Shown here in pieces: positions 4,415-38,923 of a stretch of DNA of 48,270 bases (the first letter of the stretch is position 1; each line of letters begins with the position of its first letter). The position numbers and the translations under genes were made by a program. The DNA comes from Rubrobacter aplysinae (GTDB taxonomy: Bacteria; Actinomycetota; Rubrobacteria; Rubrobacterales; Rubrobacteraceae). Under the pieces are notes generated by a model that saw only the letters and a program-made list of their open reading frames with translations, did not search any database and was not told the origin of the DNA. Where the stretch lies: positions 1 through 48,270 of the forward strand of contig NZ_LEKH01000020.1 in assembly GCF_001029505.1 (NCBI RefSeq), in the 5' to 3' direction.

Positions 4415-5047
4415 ATGAGCATCCGCATACTCATCTGCGACGATCACATGGTAGTTCGCGCCGGCCTGCGGGGGCTCGTCTCCGAGGAGCCTGGTATGGA
4501 GGTGGTCGGAGAGGCGGCCGACGGAGAGGAGGCGGTCGCTCTCGCCGGGAGACTAAAGCCCGACGTGGTCCTCATGGACCTGCGAATGCCGCACATGGAC
4601 GGCGTTACGGCGATCTCCCGCATCAAGGCCGACTACCCCAGTATACACGCGATAGTCCTTACCACCTACGAGAGCGACGCCGACATAGTAAAGGCCATAG
4701 ATAGAGGGGCGACCGGATATCTGCTCAAGAACGCCCCGAGCGAGGAGCTCTTTGGGGCCATTCGCGCCGCCGCCGAGGGCAAGCCGCTCCTTTCCCCGGC
4801 CGTCACGGCACGCCTCATGAACCGAGTGCGGGGGCCCGCCGAAGAAGCGTTGAGCACCCGCGAGATCGAGGTCCTGGAGCTCGTCGCCCGGGGGACGAGC
4901 AACAAGGAGATAGCCAAAGAGCTGTGGATCACGGAGACCACCGTAAAGACCCACATGGCCCACATATTCGAGAAGCTCGGCGTTACCGACCGCACGGCCG
5001 CCGTGACCGTGGCCCTTAGAAGGCAGATACTGAGGCTCGATGAGTGA
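4415..5047 (+). CDS. NarL/FixJ-family response regulator
   Basis: A 210-residue DNA-binding regulator, partner of the upstream kinase. The receiver domain (about 1-120) has the acidic pair Asp9-Asp10, phosphoacceptor Asp55 (VLMDLRMP), and a conserved Lys in YLLKNAP. A LuxR-type helix-turn-helix (about 145-205) includes LSTREIEVLELVARG and TTVKTHMAHIFEKL. The ATG at 4415 lies four bases after the kinase stop, so the pair is one transcription unit. A longer reading from 4334 would overlap the kinase and adds Pro-rich residues unlike a receiver. Targets are not evident. Confidence 0.95.
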   Translation: MSIRILICDDHMVVRAGLRGLVSEEPGMEVVGEAADGEEAVALAGRLKPDVVLMDLRMPHMDGVTAISRIKADYPSIHAIVLTTYESDADIVKAIDRGATGYLLKNAPSEELFGAIRAAAEGKPLLSPAVTARLMNRVRGPAEEALSTREIEVLELVARGTSNKEIAKELWITETTVKTHMAHIFEKLGVTDRTAAVTVALRRQILRLDE

Positions 5048-5061
5048 GGGCTCGATGAGTG
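5034..5061 (+). repeat. 13-bp direct repeat across the regulator stop codon
   Basis: GGCTCGATGAGTG occurs at 5034-5046 and again at 5049-5061. The first copy contains the stop codon of the response regulator, so the second duplicates its last codons beyond the stop. Confidence 0.8.
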
Positions 5062-5122
5062 TAAGCCGCAGAGTAGAAACAACCGGACACGCGCGAGGGC
5101 GAGCCGGGTCCACTCGCGTCCT

Positions 5123-6160
5123 CTACCAGAGGCGTCTGGCCGCCGCCACGACGCCCCCCGCCACCAGGACCAGGACGCCTACACTGAGGGCCACGTAGGG
5201 CAGAGGCTCTGACGATATCTCCGTAGACTCCGCAGCTTCCGCGGCTTGCGTACCCCCCGTACCCTCCGCGGCGGAGTCATCTGAGTCCTCGGAACCGCTA
5301 GACTCCGCAGAGGCGGCATCGCCGTCCGGGGTTTCATCGTTCTCGTCGCCGCTTCCTCTATTATCTCTACCCCCGCTGTGCGTTCCCGCGCCGCCTCCGC
5401 CGCCGTCAGAGCCGTTGGCGTCTCCGGGGCCCGCACCGATTCCGGCTCCTGCGGATTCTGCGCCGGCTTCGTCCGAGCCTCCTGGGGAAGAAGGGGCGCG
5501 GGAGACGGGCGGCGCTCCGCTGCTCACGTCTTTCTCGGTGGCGAGCGCGGTCTTCATCCTGGCGCCGGGGGCCCTTTGCAGGGCTCTCGTGAAGCCCTCT
5601 AGGGCGCGCCGGGCATCCTCGCCGGCATCGGGCACGGCATCCTCTCCTCCGGCTTGCTGCCTACCGGTTATATCTTCCAGTCCGCCGCCCTTTCCGGCCA
5701 TGTAGTACATGCAATTACCAGAGGCGTCGCACTCGTAGCTGGCGACGTTGAGGCACGCCTCTTTAGAGCCGCACACGTAGCAGGTCCCGGCCTCACCGTA
5801 CCTCTCGTCCCGGGCCTGGACCTCGAAATAGTCGAAGTCGCCGGCGTCAAGCATGCCGGACTCCCACAACACGTACTCACAGTCCCAGTCGGGATCGCAG
5901 AAGAAGAACTCCTTGCCGGAGGGCCCGAGTATGTGACAGCCCGCCGCATCACAGTAGTCGAAATCCTCCGGTCCGGCTATGCCGAGGCGGGCGAGATCCT
6001 GGAAGCTATCCGGGGCCGGGCGCTCCCCGTACTCCTCGTACTGATCCCGCGTGTTGTCTGGTGGTGAAGCCTGGGCAAGCGCCGTATCGGCGGTCAGCAG
6101 CGTCGCGAGCACGAACGCGCAAAGAACCGCAAATGCGTTGAGTGACTTGAATCCGCTCAT
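5123..6160 (-). CDS. Secreted Cys-rich protein with low-complexity stalk and C-terminal membrane anchor
   Basis: I do not recognise a family. The 345-residue product has a signal peptide (hydrophobic core about 8-28, ending in ALAQ). A compact domain (about 35-155) holds nine cysteines at 70, 75, 88, 94, 127, 130, 136, 144 and 150. Three of the pairs follow one pattern, CD then two to four residues then C: YCDAAGC, FCDPDWDC, ECDASGNC. A phrase FDY also recurs (EDFDYC, GDFDYF). A Ser/Gly/Asp/Glu-rich stalk (about 200-315) follows, then one membrane segment (about 321-341) ending in RRLW. Start: GGAG lies eight bases before the ATG. The layout suggests a disulfide-bonded or metal-binding exterior domain held off the membrane. 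It is divergent from the LPDTG protein. Confidence 0.85.
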   Translation of the reverse strand: MSGFKSLNAFAVLCAFVLATLLTADTALAQASPPDNTRDQYEEYGERPAPDSFQDLARLGIAGPEDFDYCDAAGCHILGPSGKEFFFCDPDWDCEYVLWESGMLDAGDFDYFEVQARDERYGEAGTCYVCGSKEACLNVASYECDASGNCMYYMAGKGGGLEDITGRQQAGGEDAVPDAGEDARRALEGFTRALQRAPGARMKTALATEKDVSSGAPPVSRAPSSPGGSDEAGAESAGAGIGAGPGDANGSDGGGGGAGTHSGGRDNRGSGDENDETPDGDAASAESSGSEDSDDSAAEGTGGTQAAEAAESTEISSEPLPYVALSVGVLVLVAGGVVAAARRLW

Positions 6161-11793: not shown

Positions 11794-13047
11794 CTAACGC
11801 CGGTCTGCTAGACGCCCGGTGGTGTCGAATCCCAGACGGCCGATGGTGCGCTCCATGGACCAGTCCGCGCCCGTGAGGAGCCGGGCCCGGCGGCCCCGCA
11901 GGTAGTAGAGGAAGATGCTCCGGTACAGGGCCTGGGCCTTCGGGCCGGAGAACTTTGCTCCCGCCGCCTCGGCGACCGCGCTCTCGGGCCCGAGGCTCAC
12001 GACGTAGCCCCGGTCGAAGTACGAGAATGGCCGGCGCTCCCGACCCCGCGTGCGGCGATCGAGATCCCGGGCGATCCAGGGTCCCTGCTGTACGGCCACG
12101 GAGGCGGTCGGGGGCAGCGGGCCGTGGTCCGGGTCCGTGTACACCCCGGCGTCGCCCGGGACGTAGATCTCCGGGTGATCCGGCAACGTGAGGTAGCCGT
12201 CAAGCGCCGCCCTCCCGGAACCGTCGGTCTCGGCATCCAGGGAGCCGTTTAGCGGCGCGGCGTGTACCCCGGCGGTCCACACGCGGGCGCGGGCCGGTAT
12301 ACGCTCGTCTCCGGCGCTTACGCCGTCGCCGTCGGCCCCGGTGACCGGGGTGTTCAGCCGCACCTCGACGCCCAGCTCCCGTAGCTCCCGCAGGGCGACT
12401 TCGTGGAAGTAGGGGTCGAGCCAACCCAGCAGCCGGTCCGTGGCCTCCAGGAGCACCACCCGGGGCTCCCGCGCCGGGGGGCGGGGCGTGCGCTTCTTCA
12501 GATAGTCGAAGAGGGAGGCTATCTCGGCGGCTAGCTCCACGCCGGTGGCCCCGCCGCCGACGAGCGTGACCGTAAGTGTCCCCTCCGCTTCGTCTCCACG
12601 CACGGAGTCTCTCCAGGCTTCGTCCAGAGCGGAACGTAGCGAGAGGGCGTCCCCGAGCGACCAGAAGAGCCCGAAGCTATCCGCCATCTCCGCGGGCGGC
12701 GGGGTGGGACGGCTGCCGGCCGCGAGCACCAGGTACTCGTACTCCACGGGGCCGGCGCTCGTGTGCAGGGTGCGGGTCTCGGGGGAGATACCCTCTACGC
12801 TCGCCCGGAGAAAGTCGCAGCGGCCCCGGCACAGAGCGGGTATGCTGCTCCGGACGCTATCCGGGTGGACCCTGCCCACGGCGACCTCGTGGATCAGGGG
12901 TATGAAGTCCCACTCGGTCTCTTGGTCCACGAGCAGCGTCTGACCGGGGCGGCGCAGCGAGGGCGGCAGGCTCCGGATGAGCGAGGCTCCTGCGAAGCCC
13001 GCGCCCACCACGACCACCCGTGAGCGCCGGGGCTCCGGGGGGGTCAT
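11794..13047 (-). CDS. Type II NADH dehydrogenase-like FAD oxidoreductase
   Basis: A 417-residue pyridine nucleotide-disulfide family flavoprotein, most like single-subunit NADH:quinone oxidoreductase (NDH-2) that feeds electrons to the quinone pool without pumping protons. Two dinucleotide-binding motifs are visible: VVVVGAGFAGASL (about 11-23) for FAD and VTLVGGGATGVELAAE (about 160-175) for NADH. The second FAD motif is EIYVPGDAGVY. No transmembrane segment is seen; the basic and aromatic C-terminal part (ALYRSIFLYYLRGRRARLL) could attach to the membrane surface as in other NDH-2. Some relatives are soluble ferredoxin or sulfide oxidoreductases, but the redox-active CxxC of disulfide reductases is absent. 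Confidence 0.9.
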   Translation of the reverse strand: MTPPEPRRSRVVVVGAGFAGASLIRSLPPSLRRPGQTLLVDQETEWDFIPLIHEVAVGRVHPDSVRSSIPALCRGRCDFLRASVEGISPETRTLHTSAGPVEYEYLVLAAGSRPTPPPAEMADSFGLFWSLGDALSLRSALDEAWRDSVRGDEAEGTLTVTLVGGGATGVELAAEIASLFDYLKKRTPRPPAREPRVVLLEATDRLLGWLDPYFHEVALRELRELGVEVRLNTPVTGADGDGVSAGDERIPARARVWTAGVHAAPLNGSLDAETDGSGRAALDGYLTLPDHPEIYVPGDAGVYTDPDHGPLPPTASVAVQQGPWIARDLDRRTRGRERRPFSYFDRGYVVSLGPESAVAEAAGAKFSGPKAQALYRSIFLYYLRGRRARLLTGADWSMERTIGRLGFDTTGRLADRR

Positions 13048-13373
13048 CGCGCGCCCTCTGGTTGTGGGGCCCGTATCACGCTAAAGCACGTCTTTCGTAA
13101 GATCTCTACGCCTCCAGAGCCCTGGTGTGATGTTCGACGTGGTGGATCACGCCGAGAGTATACCGGTGCTTTGCCCATGACCGCCCGCAGAATCACCGGA
13201 GCCCGTCCGTACACACGATGAGCCCTGACTTACAGCATGCGTACCACACTTTACAAAGTGGGGAGACATCTCTAGACTTCGGGACGGGAGGCGAGCCGTG
13301 GGGTGACGGCGCGCGGGGAACCGGCATGGATACGGGGGAGAGTAGCCCTTGAGGGCTTGGAAAGGGGGCCGCT
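13048..13373. other. 326-bp intergenic region with a palindrome
   Basis: It lies between divergent NDH-2 and a hypothetical gene, so it should contain two promoters. The only clear element is CACTTT-AC-AAAGTG at 13247-13260, an AT-rich perfect palindrome in high-GC surroundings. I see no supported gene. Confidence 0.5.
13247..13260. promoter_or_regulatory. Operator-like palindrome CACTTTACAAAGTG
   Basis: Six-base perfect arms around AC, about 115 bases upstream of the gene at 13374 and about 200 from the NDH-2 start. Its AT-richness contrasts with the surroundings. Confidence 0.5.
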
Positions 13374-13742
13374 TTGCGGAACCGGGAGATTGGAGCCGCA
13401 GAGGCCGGCGACGGCCTCGCGGAGAGCCTGGCAGAGGTCGAGGCTGCGTCTCCGGGGCTCATCGTGCGCCACACGAGCCGCCGGTTGGGGGCGCTCGCGC
13501 CGGAGGAGGCGCGGGAGCGTTTGATCTCCGGCAGCATCTCGTTCGCGGAGTTCGTGGATCAGGTCGGAGACGGGTTCCGGGAGCTTCTGGAGTTCATGAC
13601 TGAGAACGACCTGCACCCCGGGCGTCCGGGGGAGGTTCTGTACTGTATCGAGCGCAACTCCCACACCGCGGGCCGCCGGGATCTCAGGATGCAGCTCAAG
13701 CATCTCTACGCCCCGCAGGCCCCAGAGCACAGGCGGGGATAG
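13374..13742 (+). CDS. Hypothetical protein
   Basis: I do not recognise this 122-residue protein. It is mostly helical and acidic in the first two thirds (GLAESLAEVEAASPG, RLISGSISFAEFVDQVGDGFRELLEFM) and more basic near the end (RNSHTAGRRDLRMQLKHLY). A single Cys (LYCIERN) is present. There is no signal peptide or membrane span. The TTG at 13374 is supported by AAAGGGGG five bases upstream. Third-codon GC fits a real gene. Confidence 0.65.
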   Translation: MRNREIGAAEAGDGLAESLAEVEAASPGLIVRHTSRRLGALAPEEARERLISGSISFAEFVDQVGDGFRELLEFMTENDLHPGRPGEVLYCIERNSHTAGRRDLRMQLKHLYAPQAPEHRRG

Positions 13743-30882: not shown

Positions 30883-33690
30883 ATGGCTGAGTCCACAGAA
30901 TCTGCGGAGTTCATAGACTCGGGAGATTTCTCTTATCTGGTGGTGATCGGCTCCTCGGCGGGCGGGATAGAGGCCCTGTCGCGGGTGCTCGGCTCCCTGC
31001 CGGAGGACTTTCCCGCGCCGGTGGTCATAGCCCAGCACATGCACCCCGAGCGCGAGAGTCACCTGGAGGATCTACTGGCGCGCCAGAGCCGCCTACCGGT
31101 GGAGACCGTGCAGGATCACACCCCGCTCTCGGCCGGCACCGTGTTCGTGGTCCCGGCCGACCGGCACGCGAACGTGACCGACCGGGAGATAGAGGTACAC
31201 GAGGACGGCCACGGCAGGCCCAAGCCCTCCATAGACCTGCTCTTGACGAGCGCAGCGGAGGTCTACGGCGAGAACCTCGTGGCCGTCATACTCTCCGGCT
31301 CGGGCTCTGACGGCACCGACGGCGCGCGGGCGGTCAAGAGGTCCGGCGGCACGGTGGTCGTGCAGGACCCCGAAAGCGCGGAGTTCTCCGGCATGCCCGC
31401 GTCGCTGGCCCCGAGCACGGTGGACATCGTGAGTGACCTGGACGGGATCGGCGGCCTGCTCTCCGACCTCCTCTCCGAGAGCAGGCTCGCAGAAAGCGCC
31501 GACAGTGGGGCGCGCAAGGACGAGGAGAGCGAGTTTACGGAGTTCCTCGAGGAGCTGCGGCGGAGCCGGGGCATAGACTTCTCCGAGTACAAGAGGCCGA
31601 CCATCCGCCGCCGCCTGGCGCGGCGCTTCACCGCGACCGGCGTCGGGAGCCTGGGGGAGTACCGCCGCTACCTGGAAGAGAACCCCGGGGAGTACGCCAG
31701 CCTCATCAACACCTTTCTCATAAAGGTAACGGAGTTCTTCCGCGACCCGGAGCAGTTCGAGTATCTGAGGAGCGAGGTATTGCCCGGGCTCATAGAGGAG
31801 GCCCGGGAAAGCGGCGAGCAGCTCCGGCTGTGGTCCGCGGGCTGCGCAACCGGCGAGGAGGCCTACTCCCTGGCGATACTCGTCTCCGAGGCGCTGGAGC
31901 AGACTCTGGAGGAGACGTCCGGCCAGAGCCCGGCGAGCGTCTCGCAGCCCCCGGACGTGCGCATCTTTGCCACCGACCTCGACGGGGGCGCGGTGGATCA
32001 CGCCCGGCGTGGCGTATACCCGGCCTCGGCGCTCTCGGCGCTTACCGGAGAGCAGGTCTCGCGCTACTTCGACCAGCTAGACGGCCTGTACTACGTAAAG
32101 CAGTTCGTACGGTCCATGCTCATATTCGGCGAGCACGACCTGGCCCAGCGCTCGCCGTTTCCGAGGCTCGACCTGGTCGTGAGCCGCAACGTCCTGATCT
32201 ACTTCACCCCCGAGCTGCAGCGCCGCACGTTGCAGCTATTCGCCTTCTCCCTCAAGGACCGGGGATACCTGATGCTCGGCAAGGCGGAGAGTACCTCGCC
32301 GCTCCCGGAGTACTTCGCCTCCCTGGACCGCCAGTACAAGGTCTTCTACCGCGTGGGCGAGCGGTTCGTAATGCCGGCCTCCAGCATGTCCGAGGCCATG
32401 CCGAGCCTGCCAAAGAGACCCGCGCACGGCGGGCGCTCACTGCGGGCCCCGCAGCGCCGCCCGCAGGCGCAGAGCGGGGACGGCGAGCCGTCCGGGTCCG
32501 CGGCCCAGGCTGGGGAGCGGGCGCTGGCCCCGCTGCCGGTGGGTGTGATCTCCGTGGATAACAGCTACGACATCCACGCCATCAACCCCGCCGCGAGGCG
32601 GCTGCTCTCGGTGCACGGCTCCGCTATCGGCGAGGATCTGCTGCACCTGGTCCGGGAGGCTCCCTACGAAGAGCTGCGCACGGCCATAGACTACGCCTTC
32701 CGGGAGGGCCAGCCTGCGTCCACGGGCGAGTTCGAGGTGGAGGAGGTCACCACCGGAGAGTCCCGCACCCTGGACATGACCTGCCATCCCCCCGGCACCG
32801 GCAGCCCCGGTGTCCCAAAAGACGCTGGTGCCGCGGACACCGCATATAACCAAGAGACCGTTGCTCCCGGCCAGACGGTGATCATCCTGATCGAAGACGT
32901 TACGCACTACGCCCGCAGCAGGCGCGAACTGCGGCAGAGACTCGACTCGGCAGAGACGGAGCTCGCGGAGTACCGCCAGCGGGCCGAGCAGGAGTCCGGG
33001 CGCCAGCGGGAGCAGAACGGTCGTCTGGTGGAGGGCAACCGGCAGCTGGAAGCCTCCAACAGAGAGCTCCGGCGCGCCGTCGAGGAGCTGCGCGCCGCCA
33101 ACGAGCAGTACCAGCTCTCCACCGAGGAGGCTCAGGCCTCCTCCGAGGAGGTAGAGACGCTGAACGAGGAGCTCCAGGCCACCAACGAGGAGCTGGAGAC
33201 GGTCAACGAGGAGCTCCAGGCGACCGTCGAGGAGCTCAACACCACCAACGAGGACCTCCAGAACCGGAGCGCGGAGCTGCAGGAGATCTCCCGGGAGCGC
33301 GAACGGGAGCAGAAGCGGATGCGGACGCAGCTACAGAAGCAGGTGCAGACGGTCCTTGAGAGCGTCTCCGAGCCGATGCTCGTGGTAGAGTCCTCGGGCC
33401 GGGCCACGCTCACCAACGAGGCCTATCGTCACACCTTCGGCGCGAAGGGCTGCGTCGCGACCGACGACTCCGGCTCGGAGCTGCCCGGGGAGGAGACGCC
33501 CCAGAGCCGGGCCACCAGAGGCGAGAGCTTCACCGCCACTCTCATGTCCGCTTGCGATGACGGCACGCGGCGCCGCTTCGAGGCCAGGGGGGAGCCCGTG
33601 GGCGACGACGAGCAGCGGGGAGGGCTCGTGGTCTTCCGCGAGCTCCCGGACCATGAAGACCATGATCCGGACGGCACGCGGCAAGAGTAG
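30883..33690 (+). CDS. CheB-CheR-PAS hybrid signalling protein without receiver or kinase
   Basis: A 935-residue cytoplasmic protein. Domains in order: CheB methylesterase (about 15-205) with Ser25 (GSSAGG), His52 (AQHMHPE) and Asp143 (GSGSDG); CheR methyltransferase (about 215-480) with FSEYKRPTIRRRLARR and the SAM loop LWSAGCATGEEAYSLAI; a PAS-like domain (about 560-670); a long Glu/Asn coiled coil (about 680-820) with repeats such as TNEELETVNEELQAT; and a second PAS-like region. There is no CheY receiver before CheB and no kinase after the PAS. No chemotaxis genes are near, so it probably acts in a stress or sensory pathway. GAGAGGGAG supports the ATG. Confidence 0.93.
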   Translation: MAESTESAEFIDSGDFSYLVVIGSSAGGIEALSRVLGSLPEDFPAPVVIAQHMHPERESHLEDLLARQSRLPVETVQDHTPLSAGTVFVVPADRHANVTDREIEVHEDGHGRPKPSIDLLLTSAAEVYGENLVAVILSGSGSDGTDGARAVKRSGGTVVVQDPESAEFSGMPASLAPSTVDIVSDLDGIGGLLSDLLSESRLAESADSGARKDEESEFTEFLEELRRSRGIDFSEYKRPTIRRRLARRFTATGVGSLGEYRRYLEENPGEYASLINTFLIKVTEFFRDPEQFEYLRSEVLPGLIEEARESGEQLRLWSAGCATGEEAYSLAILVSEALEQTLEETSGQSPASVSQPPDVRIFATDLDGGAVDHARRGVYPASALSALTGEQVSRYFDQLDGLYYVKQFVRSMLIFGEHDLAQRSPFPRLDLVVSRNVLIYFTPELQRRTLQLFAFSLKDRGYLMLGKAESTSPLPEYFASLDRQYKVFYRVGERFVMPASSMSEAMPSLPKRPAHGGRSLRAPQRRPQAQSGDGEPSGSAAQAGERALAPLPVGVISVDNSYDIHAINPAARRLLSVHGSAIGEDLLHLVREAPYEELRTAIDYAFREGQPASTGEFEVEEVTTGESRTLDMTCHPPGTGSPGVPKDAGAADTAYNQETVAPGQTVIILIEDVTHYARSRRELRQRLDSAETELAEYRQRAEQESGRQREQNGRLVEGNRQLEASNRELRRAVEELRAANEQYQLSTEEAQASSEEVETLNEELQATNEELETVNEELQATVEELNTTNEDLQNRSAELQEISREREREQKRMRTQLQKQVQTVLESVSEPMLVVESSGRATLTNEAYRHTFGAKGCVATDDSGSELPGEETPQSRATRGESFTATLMSACDDGTRRRFEARGEPVGDDEQRGGLVVFRELPDHEDHDPDGTRQE

Positions 33691-33734: not shown

Positions 33735-34478
33735 CTACCCTTGCCCGGAGACGCGCTCCAGCGCCTCCGGGTCGGCGACGTGTATGTAACGGTCCCGGAT
33801 CTCTAAGTGGCCCTCTCTCCTGAGCTCCAGCAGGGCGTTGGTGACCGCAACCCGGCCCGCTCCGACCATCGCGGCGAGCTCGGCGTGGGTGTAGGGGGTG
33901 GGTATGCGGTACCCCTCCCGGCCCACGACCCCTTCGCTCCAGATCAGGGCCAGCACCAGCCCGGCCATCCGGCCCCGCACGCTCTTGCGTCCCAGGTCCG
34001 CCAGCCTGTCGGCGTACACCGAAAGCCTTTCGGAGAGAGACTCCACGAGCCTCATCCCGATCTCGGGCTCGTGCCGCACCAGCCGCCGGAGCTGTTCGGG
34101 GCTGACCAGGGCCGCCGTCGAGGGCTCCAGGGTGCGCGCGTACACCCCCTGTAGCTGCTGGGCCGTGAGCGTCCCCTCCGCCGACAGCGCACCCGCGTCC
34201 ACTATGGAGAGCGTGAGTTCCTTTCCGGCGGCGACCTTGTAGATCCTGACCCTCCCTTCAAGGAGCAGCAACAACGGCCCCCCGCGCCGCGCCGGGGTGT
34301 GAAAGAGCTGATCGTTTCTGAGGTGCATCGTGGGCGTCCTGCGGGCGAACCTCTCAAGCTCCTCCGCCGACAACGGCTCCAGAACATCCACCATGGATAA
34401 AAGCCGCACCTTCTGCCGTAGCGCCATCTCCTCCGCTGCGGCGTTGCGGTACCCGCCGGGCTCTGAATTGATATTCAT
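33735..34478 (-). CDS. Crp/Fnr-family transcription regulator
   Basis: A 247-residue regulator. The N-terminal jelly-roll (about 30-140) has the order of a cyclic-nucleotide-type sensor (LFHTPARRGGPLLLLLEGRVRIYKV), but the phosphate-binding cassette is not clearly conserved, so a different ligand or no ligand is possible. A long dimer helix follows, then a winged HTH (about 170-240): YTHAELAAMVGAGRVAVTNALLELRREGHLEI. The ATG is exactly six bases from TAGAAT, with no ribosome site, suggesting a leaderless mRNA. It is divergent from the SseB/STAS/Hsp20 genes across 417 bases and may control them. Confidence 0.9.
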   Translation of the reverse strand: MNINSEPGGYRNAAAEEMALRQKVRLLSMVDVLEPLSAEELERFARRTPTMHLRNDQLFHTPARRGGPLLLLLEGRVRIYKVAAGKELTLSIVDAGALSAEGTLTAQQLQGVYARTLEPSTAALVSPEQLRRLVRHEPEIGMRLVESLSERLSVYADRLADLGRKSVRGRMAGLVLALIWSEGVVGREGYRIPTPYTHAELAAMVGAGRVAVTNALLELRREGHLEIRDRYIHVADPEALERVSGQG

Positions 34479-34895: not shown

Positions 34896-35456
34896 ATGGT
34901 TAACCCCGAGATCTTCGAGGCTTCTGACGCTTTCAAAACTTTCGATGTGGACGATACGGAGCTTATGGCGGGGGCTCACGAGGCTTACGGGCGCGCCATA
35001 AACGCCATGAAATCCCCCCACGGCCCGGATGCCCCGGACGAAAGGCGATTGAGTCCCAGCTACTGGGTGGTCTGCACCCCGCGGGAGCGTCTACCCGACC
35101 CCAGCGAGGTGCTGTGCGTGACGGGCGGTCGCGGAGAGGGCATCGAGGACGGGGCCGGAGCCCGCCGGGCACTCGCGGTGTTCAGCTTCAGAGAGGAGGC
35201 GGAGGCGTTCCGCAGGCTCCGCTCCCGGGGGCGGGGTCTCCGGATCAGGGAGCTCGACGGCGGGGAGCTCATATCCGTGCTCTACGGTCAGTGGGGCGGC
35301 CTGGGCCGAGTCGCCCTGGACCCCGTGCCGGAGGCCGAGCATCACGTCGCGGACCGCCTGGTCATCGTTAGCCGGGAGGAGTTCGTGAAGCTGCTCGTGA
35401 GCCGGGTGAGGTTCCCCGTTCCATCCCCCCCCGGTGGACCAACCGGCGTCGCGTAA
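34896..35456 (+). CDS. SseB-like hypothetical protein, paralogue of 36463
   Basis: A 186-residue protein that is not a named family member as far as I can tell. From about residue 85 it runs ALAVFSFREEAEAFRRL, then IRELDGGELISVLYGQ, then RVALDPVPEA and VSREEFVKLL. The gene at 36463 repeats the same order: LPVFGSGPEAKRFAEAW, VTGAGELISLLSGS, RVVFDPPVEA, VSRARFLETL. This order resembles the SseB N-terminal domain (VFTSxxxA, GxELL, LNPG). The function is unknown. AAGGAG precedes the ATG by four bases. It is first in a plus-strand run with STAS, a charged protein, its paralogue and Hsp20. Confidence 0.8.
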   Translation: MVNPEIFEASDAFKTFDVDDTELMAGAHEAYGRAINAMKSPHGPDAPDERRLSPSYWVVCTPRERLPDPSEVLCVTGGRGEGIEDGAGARRALAVFSFREEAEAFRRLRSRGRGLRIRELDGGELISVLYGQWGGLGRVALDPVPEAEHHVADRLVIVSREEFVKLLVSRVRFPVPSPPGGPTGVA

Positions 35457-35491
35457 TTAAAGGACCGTAGAGGAGACCGTGAAAGGAGGCT

Positions 35492-35905
35492 GTGAGGCTC
35501 ATGGGCGCGGAAACGGAGACTAACGATCATCTCTCCAGGGTCGAGACGACCGGGTTCTCGGCCCCGGTCGGCAGGGTTGCGGACGGGTCTCCCGTGGTAG
35601 AGGTTCGCGGAGAGGTAGACCTCGCCACCGTACCCGAGCTACTCAGGGGCATAGGCGTGGCCTGTTCCCGGCTGGACGGGCAGCCGGTCGCGTACGTGGA
35701 CCTCAGAGAGGCGGAGTTCATAGACGTCTACGGGGTCCGCACCCTCGTCGAGCAGGCACAGGCCATGTGGGAGCTCGGAGGAGAGCTGCGCCTGGTGGTG
35801 CCGCAGGGAGGCCCGGTGACCCGCGCTTTCGGCCTGCTAGAGGTCGAGCGGGTGCTGGAGCTGTACCACGATACGGTTATCCCCGGTGGACCGGCTGACT
35901 CGTGA
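35492..35905 (+). CDS. STAS-domain protein, anti-sigma antagonist-like, with Tyr at the switch site
   Basis: A 137-residue single STAS domain, the fold of SpoIIAA/RsbV anti-sigma factor antagonists. VVEVRGEVDLATVPELLRGI and AYVDLREAEFIDVYGVRTLVEQAQ are the conserved strands. In classical antagonists the loop is D-S-S-G and the second Ser is phosphorylated; here it is Asp78-Val-Tyr80-Gly, so the usual switch residue is missing. No kinase or phosphatase partner is near. AAAGGAGG lies two bases before the GTG at 35492 and 11 before the ATG at 35501, so either start is possible. The stop overlaps the next gene. Confidence 0.88.
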   Translation: MRLMGAETETNDHLSRVETTGFSAPVGRVADGSPVVEVRGEVDLATVPELLRGIGVACSRLDGQPVAYVDLREAEFIDVYGVRTLVEQAQAMWELGGELRLVVPQGGPVTRAFGLLEVERVLELYHDTVIPGGPADS

Positions 35906-36261
35906 CCGTAGAGATGGATGGAGACATGGTTGCAGAGAGCGACCGTCAACGGCTGGGGGAGCGCTACATGCAGGTGGAGCGCAAGGAGATCGCGGACCGT
36001 AGAAACGGCGAGCTCGCCCGGGTGCTCGGCCCCGCGCTGCCCGGAGAGTCGCAGGAGGAGCTGGGCCGTCTCGCCCGCGAGGACCGGGAGAAGGCCGAGG
36101 AGGGGCTCGCCGAGCTCCGGGACGGCGAAGAGGTCTGGTACAAGCCCGTGGAGGAGCTCACCCGCCGGGACCGGGCGGCCAGGATAGAGGCGCAGAGGAA
36201 GCGTCTGGAGTGGGTGCAGGGACGTCTCAAGAGCTCGTCTCCAAAGAATCCGCAACGATGA
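35902..36261 (+). CDS. Small highly charged helical protein
   Basis: A 119-residue protein rich in Glu, Arg and Lys, probably a helical hairpin or coiled coil (DRQRLGERYMQVERKEIADRR, EELGRLAREDREKAEEGLAELRDGEEVWY). No family is recognised. The GTG overlaps the STAS stop as GTGA, so the two are likely coupled and their products may act together. ATGs at 35914 and 35926 would give shorter forms. Partnership with the STAS protein is inference from coupling. Confidence 0.7.
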   Translation: MTVEMDGDMVAESDRQRLGERYMQVERKEIADRRNGELARVLGPALPGESQEELGRLAREDREKAEEGLAELRDGEEVWYKPVEELTRRDRAARIEAQRKRLEWVQGRLKSSSPKNPQR

Positions 36262-36341
36262 AGAGGTATGAGAGCCCCGGTCACTCGCGCCGGGGGTGTC
36301 GGGGGCTCCTTGCAGAGGCTACCGGCGCCGGAGCGTCGGGC

Positions 36342-36377
36342 GTGAAAGGAGTGAAAGGAGTGAAAGGGGTGAAAAGA
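36342..36377 (+). repeat. Four tandem 9-mers of GTGAAAGGA type
   Basis: Copies: GTGAAAGGA, GTGAAAGGA, GTGAAAGGG, GTGAAAAGA. They lie 86 bases upstream of the SseB-like gene at 36463. Each of the first two carries a ribosome-site-like AAAGGA. Confidence 0.85.
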
Positions 36378-36462
36378 TGGAACGGACGTCATTCAACCGC
36401 CGATGGAGCGGTGCCGGGGGCGCCGTTTGCGCGGCAAGTCCGGCGAGGAGGTGGGTAGGGTC

Positions 36463-36990
36463 ATGACGACCTCGCCACGAAGCACGGGAGAACCGTCCGG
36501 GTCCCGTCCGGGCACTTTACCCGAGGTTCTGCGGACTCCTTACGGGCTCGTCGTCAAGGACGTGGCGGGGGGTAACTATCCCCGGCGGAGCGTCCTCCAG
36601 CCCACGGTGCTTTCGCTACGGCTCCCGGAGGGCAAGGCGCTGCCCGTGTTCGGCTCCGGGCCGGAGGCCAAGCGGTTTGCGGAGGCCTGGAACGAGCGGC
36701 TGCGGTACGAAGGGGCGTCGCCGGCGGGCGCGCACGAGGGGTGGCGGGGCCGGGTTACCGGCGCCGGAGAGCTGATCTCGCTGCTCTCGGGGAGCGAGTT
36801 CTCGGCGGGGCCGTGCGATGGGGTAGACAGGGTCGTCTTCGACCCGCCCGTGGAGGCCATCCCGGCTATCAGGGGAGGACGCGGCCCGTACCGCGCCGGT
36901 GCCCTGCCCCGCGGCGTAAGCCGCGCCCGCTTTCTGGAGACTCTCATGGGCCGGGGAAAGGCCTGGTTCGAAGGCTCGCGCGGGAGTTAG
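36463..36990 (+). CDS. SseB-like hypothetical protein, paralogue of 34896
   Basis: A 175-residue protein. From about residue 60 it repeats the motif order of the gene at 34896: ALPVFGSGPEAKRFAEAW, GAGELISLLSGS, DRVVFDPPVEAIP, and VSRARFLETL. The first 35 residues are a Ser/Pro/Gly-rich, likely disordered segment. The function is unknown; an SseB-like fold is inferred from the motif order. The ATG at 36463 is chosen as the first start with room for a ribosome site (GAGGAGG lies upstream); an in-frame GTG at 36451 is too close to it. Hsp20 follows 52 bases downstream. Confidence 0.78.
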   Translation: MTTSPRSTGEPSGSRPGTLPEVLRTPYGLVVKDVAGGNYPRRSVLQPTVLSLRLPEGKALPVFGSGPEAKRFAEAWNERLRYEGASPAGAHEGWRGRVTGAGELISLLSGSEFSAGPCDGVDRVVFDPPVEAIPAIRGGRGPYRAGALPRGVSRARFLETLMGRGKAWFEGSRGS

Positions 36991-37042: not shown

Positions 37043-37492
37043 ATGAAGAACCCGTTCAGAGGGATCGTGGACCAGATCACGGAGAACAACCGGATCATGG
37101 AGCAGTGGATGGCCGGTTACTCGACCGGTGGGGAGCGTCAACGGAGCTACGAGGACGCTTGGGCGCCGACGACCGACATCTTCCTGAGGGATAACGGGGA
37201 TCTGGTGGTGCTGGCCGAGCTCCCCGGAGTCCGCAGGGAAGAGGTGGATCTCAGCCTCTCGGACGGGGATCTGACCATCTTCGGCGAGAAAGAGGGCCAG
37301 GAGGAGGGCGTCCGGTACTACACGGCCGAGCGGTACACCGGCTCCTTCCGGCGTCACATAAGCCTCCCGCACGGCCTCGACGAGGACAGAATAAGCGCCG
37401 CTTTCGAGGGCTGCACGCTAAAGATCGTCATACACGATTACTCGGATCTCCTCGAAGAGAAGCAGCTCGATATCGAGACCCCGGAGGACTGA
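37043..37492 (+). CDS. Small heat shock protein, Hsp20/alpha-crystallin family
   Basis: A 149-residue holdase chaperone that binds unfolding proteins. The alpha-crystallin domain spans about 45-140: PTTDIFLRDNGDLVVLAELPGVRREEVDLSLSDGDLTIFGEK, then RYTGSFRRHISLPHGLDEDRISAAFEGCTLKIVI. The short N-terminal arm is typical. The C-terminal IxI/V anchor is not evident; the protein ends DIETPED. AAAGGAG supports the ATG. A decayed copy of its central part lies at 38744-38923. Confidence 0.94.
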   Translation: MKNPFRGIVDQITENNRIMEQWMAGYSTGGERQRSYEDAWAPTTDIFLRDNGDLVVLAELPGVRREEVDLSLSDGDLTIFGEKEGQEEGVRYYTAERYTGSFRRHISLPHGLDEDRISAAFEGCTLKIVIHDYSDLLEEKQLDIETPED

Positions 37493-37640: not shown

Positions 37641-38483
37641 GTGACCCACGAAGAAGCCGCGGACCTGATGGATACCAGGCTGGACGGAAGCCACCGGGAC
37701 GGGCACGGCTCCCCGCAGACCTTGCCAAGAGCGGCGTCGGGAACATCTCTAGCACCTCTAAAGTCTCTAAAAGATACGGAGTGCGGCCGGCTGGCCGCGA
37801 TGATCGAAGAGCTCGAGTTGCCTACCACCAGAAGACGCTTCGTGCCCGGAGACGTCGTCTACCAGGGCCGGGAGCCCGAAGACGGGCTGTACATACTGAC
37901 CGAGGGTATCTTGAGCGTCAGTGACCTCCTGCCCGGTGGCAAGAGCTTTACGACCAGGATGCTCACCGTCTCCGACACCTTCGGCCGCCTGAATCCTACC
38001 GACCCGGAAGAGACGCTGACCGTCCCCTCGACGGATGCCGCGTTCTATGCCGGCTACGTCGAGGCCAGCGCCACGGCTCTCACGGACTCCGAGATCCTCA
38101 AGGTGCCCAAGGCGCTTTTGCGCCGGGCGCTGCGCCTGTCGCCGGAGGCGGCGCTGTCGCTGGCAACGCTAACAGAGCTCAGGCTGGCCGAGCAGGAAAG
38201 GCTCGTGCGGGTCCTGTCTTCGCGCCGGACCGAGTCCAGGCTCGCGGGACTTCTACCCCTGCTAGCCGAGAAGTTCTCCAGGGGAGACGGCGGAGATGGC
38301 GGAGAGGGTGCCGTGATCATGCTGCGCCTGACGCACCAGGACCTTTCCGACATGATCTCTACCACGCGTGAGTCGGTCACCAAGGCCATATCGGACCTGC
38401 AGGCCCGCCAAGCCATAGGCTACTCCCGAGGTCTCATAGTCCTGCTGGATCCGGAAAAGCTCCGGTACGCCGCCACCGGCTGA
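37641..38483 (+). CDS. Crp/Fnr-family regulator downstream of Hsp20
   Basis: A 280-residue regulator. After a disordered N-terminal 40 residues, the sensor jelly-roll is recognisable (RFVPGDVVYQGREPEDGLYILTEGILSVSDLLPGGKSFTTRMLTVSDTFG) and a winged HTH follows (about 235-275: MLRLTHQDLSDMISTTRESVTKAISDLQARQAIGYSRG). The cyclic-nucleotide cassette is not conserved. GGAG precedes the GTG closely. It lies on the same strand as the SseB-like, STAS and Hsp20 genes and could autoregulate the cluster. It is not a close copy of the Crp/Fnr protein at 33735. Confidence 0.9.
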   Translation: MTHEEAADLMDTRLDGSHRDGHGSPQTLPRAASGTSLAPLKSLKDTECGRLAAMIEELELPTTRRRFVPGDVVYQGREPEDGLYILTEGILSVSDLLPGGKSFTTRMLTVSDTFGRLNPTDPEETLTVPSTDAAFYAGYVEASATALTDSEILKVPKALLRRALRLSPEAALSLATLTELRLAEQERLVRVLSSRRTESRLAGLLPLLAEKFSRGDGGDGGEGAVIMLRLTHQDLSDMISTTRESVTKAISDLQARQAIGYSRGLIVLLDPEKLRYAATG

Positions 38484-38490
38484 TCAGACG

Positions 38491-38742
38491 TTGACCAGAC
38501 GTGACGGAAACCCGCAATTGGGGCTTTATCTCCAGCGCGAGATATCCTGGCTCGTAGGGCTGTGCAAAGAGGCAAGCTTTACCCGCGAGGGTGCGAGCAT
38601 CATGCGTATCCTGTCCGAGATGGAGCGCCAGGGCGAGCTGCGCGAAGACGACAAGCGGCACGCGCTGGAGGTCGCAGAGCACGTGCGGTACGTGGAGCTT
38701 CTGGAGCCCTCGCCGGAGACCTTGCAGAGGAATACGAAGTAA
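38491..38742 (+). CDS. Small helical hypothetical protein
   Basis: An 83-residue frame eight bases after the Crp/Fnr stop. It seems helical (REISWLVGLCKEASFTREGASIMRILSEMERQGELREDDKRHALEVAEHVRYVELL) and acidic to mixed in charge. No family is recognised. The TTG start has no clear ribosome site. Codon bias favours this frame over others. It may be coupled to the regulator gene. The Hsp20 remnant starts just after its stop. Confidence 0.55.
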   Translation: MTRRDGNPQLGLYLQREISWLVGLCKEASFTREGASIMRILSEMERQGELREDDKRHALEVAEHVRYVELLEPSPETLQRNTK

Positions 38743-38743
38743 T

Positions 38744-38923
38744 AGTCCGACTACCTACACGGCCGGGCGGTACTCCGGCTCCTCCCGGCGCACCGTGAAC
38801 CTGTCCGACGGCCTGGACGAAGACAGGCTGGACCGCCACTCCGAAGATTGTCTACCCGGGGCCGCCGTCCGCGACTGCCCGGAGACCCTGCAAGCGGAGC
38901 GGAGCGAGTCCGGGAACGCATAG
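38744..38923 (+). pseudogene. Degenerate Hsp20 fragment
   Basis: Reading from about 38753 gives YTAGRYSGSSRRTVNLSDGL followed by DEDRLDRHSEDC. The intact Hsp20 at 37043 reads YTAERYTGSFRRHISLPHGL followed by DEDRISAAFEGC. The DNA also aligns closely over about 80 bases. The N-terminal half of the alpha-crystallin domain is missing, the end has drifted (DCPETLQAERSESGNA), and no start or ribosome site is present. It is a decayed partial duplicate. Confidence 0.82.

Follow-up and report, generated by a model that had tools for sequence, protein, structure and literature searches.

A predicted SseB/Tic22-type protein family of Rubrobacteraceae and its regulatory neighbors at a locus of Rubrobacter aplysinae

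The window, meaning the whole stretch of DNA that was analyzed, is contig C20 (48,270 bases) of a Rubrobacter aplysinae genome of 3.19 Mb in 33 contigs. Two genes for proteins that we call A and B flank a STAS gene and a gene for a charged protein (CH), and they are accompanied by an Hsp20 gene, two Crp/Fnr genes, and a gene for a CheB-CheR-PAS-coiled-coil protein (Table 1). The STAS, Hsp20, and two Crp/Fnr genes that an earlier note had named at this locus were all present, and the Pfam cut-offs were exceeded by the STAS domain (PF01740, 28.1 bits versus 22.6) and by the alpha-crystallin domain of the Hsp20 protein (PF00011, 53.6 bits versus 20.8). ATG 35501 and ATG 36463 are the more likely starts of the STAS and B genes, compared with the first start of each frame, because of their ribosome-binding context. 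With GTG 35902 as its start, CH overlaps the STAS stop codon; ATG 35926 is an alternative with a better upstream purine stretch. CH and B are separated by 200 bases that include an 18-base imperfect inverted repeat, and the gene row therefore may not be one transcript. The same interval contains, at approximately 36341-36376, three to four tandem GTGAAAGGA-like units that resemble the ribosome-binding stretch 5' of the STAS gene. The Hsp20 gene begins 52 bases 3' of B on the same strand, and the remnant of a second Hsp20 gene lies at 38687-38902 (+), with 32% identity to the intact Hsp20 (E 5e-8) and the start of the domain missing. An inverted-repeat search of the intergenic region that separates A from the left Crp/Fnr gene revealed no operator-like palindrome of at least 10 bases.

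Table 1. Genes of the locus, with coordinates in the window
Feature	Coordinates	Strand	Remarks
CheB-CheR-PAS-coiled-coil protein	30883-33690	+	upstream of the left Crp/Fnr gene; beyond the stretch treated in the earlier note
Left Crp/Fnr regulator	33735-34478	-	divergent from A
Protein A	34896-35456	+	186 aa; predicted SseB/Tic22-like domain at residues ~53-170
STAS-domain protein	35501-35905	+	PF01740; GTG 35492 is an alternative start
Charged protein CH	35902-36261	+	119 aa; Rubrobacteraceae protein family
Protein B	36463-36990	+	175 aa; predicted SseB/Tic22-like domain; frame also open from ATG 36403
Hsp20/alpha-crystallin protein	37043-37492	+	PF00011
Second Crp/Fnr regulator	37641-38483	+	start possibly 37800

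A and B had been proposed to be a paralogous pair with an ordered set of common motifs. All four motifs were found in both reading frames and in the proposed order, as VFSFREEAEAF, GELISVL, VALDPVPEA, and VSREEFVKLL in A and as VFGSGPEAKRF, GELISLL, VVFDPPVEA, and VSRARFLETL in B. Direct BLASTP comparison of the two proteins gave only a modest match (E 6e-4), and their kinship was therefore tested through relatives. With A alone as the query, relatives were retrieved from 33 of 60 genomes, all within the 36 Rubrobacteraceae genomes of the set; B alone retrieved 16 places in 10 of the 60; of the 14 that lie outside its own genome, A alone also retrieved 13. An iterated profile reached B at E 3.7e-16, a value for which B may have sat in the training set of the later rounds. 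A single-sequence scan of the genome contigs with A gave no match. Using a 55-member profile on 37 genomes, we located 102 places in 21 genomes; these comprise 21 of the 23 Rubrobacteraceae genomes (0-11 copies each, with seven in the R. aplysinae genome) and none of the 14 genomes of other Actinomycetota. Members are single short domains with a median length of 132 aa. Named-record relatives were titled Rubrobacter, Rubrobacteraceae, or unplaced Actinobacteria/Actinomycetota; no member was found in phage records, and one plasmid record contained members (NZ_CP045120.1 of Rubrobacter tropicus, 205,328 bases), annotated there as hypothetical proteins. A and B thus belong to one family of common descent, seen only in Rubrobacteraceae among the genomes searched. 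In the family tree (106 columns, many forks unresolved), B groups with two copies from its own genome (on contig C10, support 99/90; together with that on C4, 93/81) and A groups with one copy each from genomes G020 and G035 (99/81). The two proteins are homologous, as had been proposed, and represent two different subfamilies rather than close duplicates or a recent tandem pair.

Structures of A and B were predicted with AlphaFold2 (mean pLDDT 69.6 and 76.4, respectively). The domain core of both models scored mostly 86-91 per ten-residue block, and the N-terminal part of the A model is helical with low confidence. The top structural match was TTHA0547 of Thermus thermophilus (2z0r), a hypothetical protein, at Z 11.7 for A and 9.8 for B; 94-95 residues aligned with an rmsd of 2.4 and an identity of 15-22%. 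TTHA0547 was not reached when the family profile was searched against PDB sequences, a search that returned mainly WD-40 proteins, which we rejected as repeat artefacts, and our literature search found no paper naming TTHA0547. The next matches of both models were four chains at Z 5.1-6.9 over 72-95 residues, namely the Tic22 proteins of Anabaena and Plasmodium (4ev1 and 4e6z) and two chains from chloroplast FtsHi motor complexes (8xks_I and 8xqw_Q); these scores fall short of 8, a range in which the tool cautions that common arrangements occur. No other structure entry appeared at Z 2 for the B model or at Z 4.2 for the A model. The Tic22 chains differ in being about twice as long (198-226 residues), and on 4ev1 the A model aligns to the second half and the B model to the first half. 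SseB domains have been proposed to be related to Tic22 and to act as peptide-binding chaperones, according to the excerpts of PMC9503650 available to us. On their own the Tic22 matches would be weak; as comparisons of predicted structures, they agree with what those excerpts propose for SseB domains.

SseB takes its name from the E. coli protein, whose over-expression causes enhanced serine sensitivity. Neither A nor B gave any match to the SseB model PF07179 at its cut-off of 21 bits, and no Rubrobacteraceae match reached that cut-off. When 55 members were scanned against Pfam, PF07179 was nonetheless the commonest match (7 of 55, best E 4.6e-4), followed by DUF2750 (2 of 55). We then compared the 55-member profile, using hhalign, with a profile of 22 real SseB domains from other Actinomycetota and obtained a probability of 91% and a score of 40.5 over 63 columns, versus 15.9 for the best of 60 column-shuffled SseB alignments, 15.4 for the reversed alignment, and 14.7 for the unrelated CH profile. 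The aligned core spans the strand before LPVF to the DP motif, which is the likeness to PF07179; the difference is that family members score below the cut-off and consist of a single short domain. PHROGs and NCBIfam were uninformative for A, B, and CH. One family member matched SAV_915 at E 0.06. The earlier suggestion that A and B are SseB-like thus survived the profile-profile comparison as distant homology and is matched by the fold of two predicted structures, but it does not extend to Pfam's own definition of SseB. Judged by these profiles and models, the SseB label appears right at the superfamily level, and the A/B family would be a new family of the SseB/Tic22 superfamily, a lineage-specific variation on a known fold and not SseB proper.

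The flanked STAS gene and the Hsp20 gene had been taken, with A and B, as a possible new stress-signaling module. Among the loci examined, we found no other at which A, STAS, CH, B, and Hsp20 occur together; the full set was encountered in this genome alone. In the 6-kb surroundings of the 102 family members from 37 genomes, relatives of this STAS protein were present at three (A, B, and one in G011), CH at four (A, B, one on contig C4 of the same genome, and one in G005), and Hsp20 at five (A, B, one in G002, and an equivalent locus in G008 and G019). The latter are two genomes of one genus, in both of which Hsp20 is encoded 2.2 kb downstream of the family member. Further loci common to CH and a family member occur in G011 and G026. 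G001, the only other genome of the window's genus in the set, has four family members, but no relative of Hsp20, CH, or STAS was found at a distance of up to 6 kb from any of them. On C4 (L120:3442-5866), an SseB-like gene of the B clade is grouped with genes for a CH paralogue and a Crp/Fnr regulator, all three being consecutive and on one strand. The genes do not stay together as the set had been drawn, and a conserved module of SseB-like, STAS, and Hsp20 genes is not supported by these loci. In the texts available to us from a search on Rubrobacter with SseB, anti-anti-sigma, small heat shock, and CheB/CheR, neither the locus nor the family was described.

The CheB-CheR-PAS gene showed a closer association with the family. 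Close relatives of its product (60-64% identity over the first 208 residues) were found in three other genomes of the 37 searched (G005, G011, and G020), and in all three a family member lies 2.0-2.8 kb away; the chance of this outcome is approximately 5e-6 to 2e-5 in a simple Poisson estimate from copy number and genome size. A further relative in G026 has a family member at 4.8 kb; this locus was met via its family member and was excluded from the count. All four close relatives found therefore have a family member within approximately 5 kb. The CheB-CheR-PAS gene is followed in G011, G020, and G026 by genes for a response regulator and for a sensor protein, which in G026 is a PAS/GAF histidine kinase according to Pfam. 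These loci resemble the window in having the same CheB-CheR-PAS protein near a family member, whereas in the window no kinase or response regulator was called directly beside it, and Crp/Fnr, STAS, CH, and Hsp20 genes are found instead. We searched the tree for one clade uniting the family members linked to CheB-CheR and found none; A is placed with the G020 copy, and the rest lie elsewhere. A literature search on CheB-CheR fusions found no papers.

Crp/Fnr genes were present within 2 kb of eight of the 102 family members, with 0.69 expected. Two of the eight are A and B and one is from a near-duplicate genome; the other five correspond to p ~6e-4. Relatives of the left Crp/Fnr protein (40-50% identity) adjoin family members in G002, G005, G014, G019, G020, and G022, and on C4 of the R. 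aplysinae genome. In G005, G019, and G020, small helical proteins, presumably phasin-like, are encoded between the Crp/Fnr and SseB-like genes (L239:8039-8533, L246:8726-9121, and L247:8100-8525); the two that were scanned, from G005 and G019, had no Pfam match above cut-off, and a remnant of such a gene was sought upstream of A and was absent.

We also carried out a rank test that compared the two nearest genes with genes further away at 72 loci, the window being excluded and 14 loci with overlapping or near-duplicate stretches having been removed before counting. Response regulators were enriched among the nearest genes (15 of 272 versus 4 of 278 far, p 0.008), as were HTH_17 regulators (nine near versus none far), a class that had been noticed before testing. 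There was no excess of Crp/Fnr (2 versus 1), CheB-CheR (2 versus 3), sigma factor (2 versus 2), or Hsp20 genes (0 versus 1). Genes of any signaling class made up 41 of the 272 nearest genes, a pooled test that includes two classes picked after the neighbors were seen; without those two, the counts were 29 near versus 13 far (p 0.006). Most family copies stand alone among unrelated genes. HTH_17 regulator genes lie close to SseB-like genes at L091:4110-4919 and 4916-5317, at L054, L084, and L098, and at five more loci; some of these gene pairs overlap at their ends, and the HTH_17 assignment was confirmed by Pfam in L084 only. A MEDS sensor domain was considered for the C-terminal part of the HTH_17 neighbors, but Pfam gave no confirmation. 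The signaling connection suggested by the earlier note is borne out in the form of CheB-CheR-PAS, Crp/Fnr, response regulator, and HTH_17 neighbors rather than as the module then envisaged, and the main link of interest is to the neighboring CheB-CheR-PAS and Crp/Fnr genes.

The site of the STAS protein reads D-V-Y-G, where eight of ten distinct homologues have D-S-S-G or D-S-C-G and the remaining two, both from G011, have N-S-R-G. The first serine of D-S-S-G corresponds to the residue that is phosphorylated in classical anti-anti-sigma factors (SpoIIAA). Against the anti-anti-sigma model TIGR00377, the protein scored 38.1 bits, below the curated cut-off of 53.45. G011 also combines a STAS domain with a cysteine-rich stretch in two ways, fused in one gene and as two neighboring genes (L228:3164-3862 and 12826-13502), and these arrangements stand on both sides of the CheB-CheR locus. 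D, E, K, and R make up 44% of CH. The CH family was found in 21 of the 60 genomes, all Rubrobacteraceae; most of its members are longer proteins, and five called genes are short like that of the window. In G005, a CH-family domain is fused behind a response-regulator receiver domain (L178:1489-2439 (-), the same as L096:3480-4433).

An Rsb-type partner-switching stress module, in which the STAS protein would serve as anti-anti-sigma factor with CH for a partner, could accommodate the STAS domain and the signaling role for CH that its receiver-fused relative suggests. We consider this very improbable given the TIGR00377 score, the replacement of the site serine, and a scan of ten proteins around the STAS gene that found no anti-sigma kinase or phosphatase domain. 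Alternatively, A, B, and Hsp20 might form a general holdase set that protects proteins under heat, drying, or radiation, with the regulators controlling expression only and binding neither A nor B. The predicted fold resembles that of Tic22, described as a peptide-binding chaperone in the excerpts mentioned above, and Hsp20 closely follows B here and lies downstream of a family member in G008 and G019. Apart from A and B, however, only three of 100 members have Hsp20 nearby, two of them at an equivalent locus in two genomes of one genus, the rank test gave no near Hsp20 gene, and a multicopy family placed beside differing regulators is a poor fit to one general holdase; we regard this explanation as unlikely. 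It is likewise doubtful that the locus is a chance island of unrelated stress genes, in which the SseB-like copies would be scattered lineage-specific paralogues in generally regulator-rich genomes. That explanation would account for a full set restricted to one genome, for the solitary position of most copies, and for the gap and inverted repeat between CH and B, but it is opposed by the family member near each of the three CheB-CheR-PAS relatives, by the excess of Crp/Fnr genes within 2 kb, and by the C4 locus, where a CH paralogue has a copy of the B clade and a Crp/Fnr gene as neighbors.

The best-supported reading, which we put forward tentatively, is that the A/B proteins are single-domain adaptors or chaperones of SseB/Tic22 type that serve neighboring regulators. 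The fold and the bias towards regulatory neighbors were computed here; that the A/B proteins bind peptides, have these partners, and take any part in stress is what we infer. By analogy with what is thought for Tic22, the domain would bind exposed peptide segments, and each family copy would be devoted, as adaptor or chaperone, to the regulator whose gene adjoins its own. The partners of A might be the CheB-CheR-PAS protein and the divergently encoded Crp/Fnr regulator, and those of B the STAS and charged proteins. Because the phosphorylatable serine is missing, the STAS protein would act as a scaffold rather than in classical partner switching. The Crp/Fnr proteins may control, in response to a redox or stress signal, how strongly the genes of the cluster are expressed, among them Hsp20. 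SseB/Tic22-type proteins may have been recruited to the CheB-CheR-PAS protein several times. A more elaborate combination, which we consider improbable, is that the SseB/Tic22-type domains of Rubrobacteraceae are dedicated signal-transduction adaptors and that the CheB-CheR-PAS protein is a methylation-based, non-chemotactic switch that acts via an assembly of SseB-like, STAS, and charged proteins and sets protein-folding capacity together with Crp/Fnr.

These results give a predicted fold to a multicopy family that is annotated as hypothetical in named records and tie it to the little-understood SseB domain. They also provide testable regulator partners, the CheB-CheR-PAS protein foremost among them, and the adaptor reading, if true, would help to explain the function of SseB domains in bacteria.
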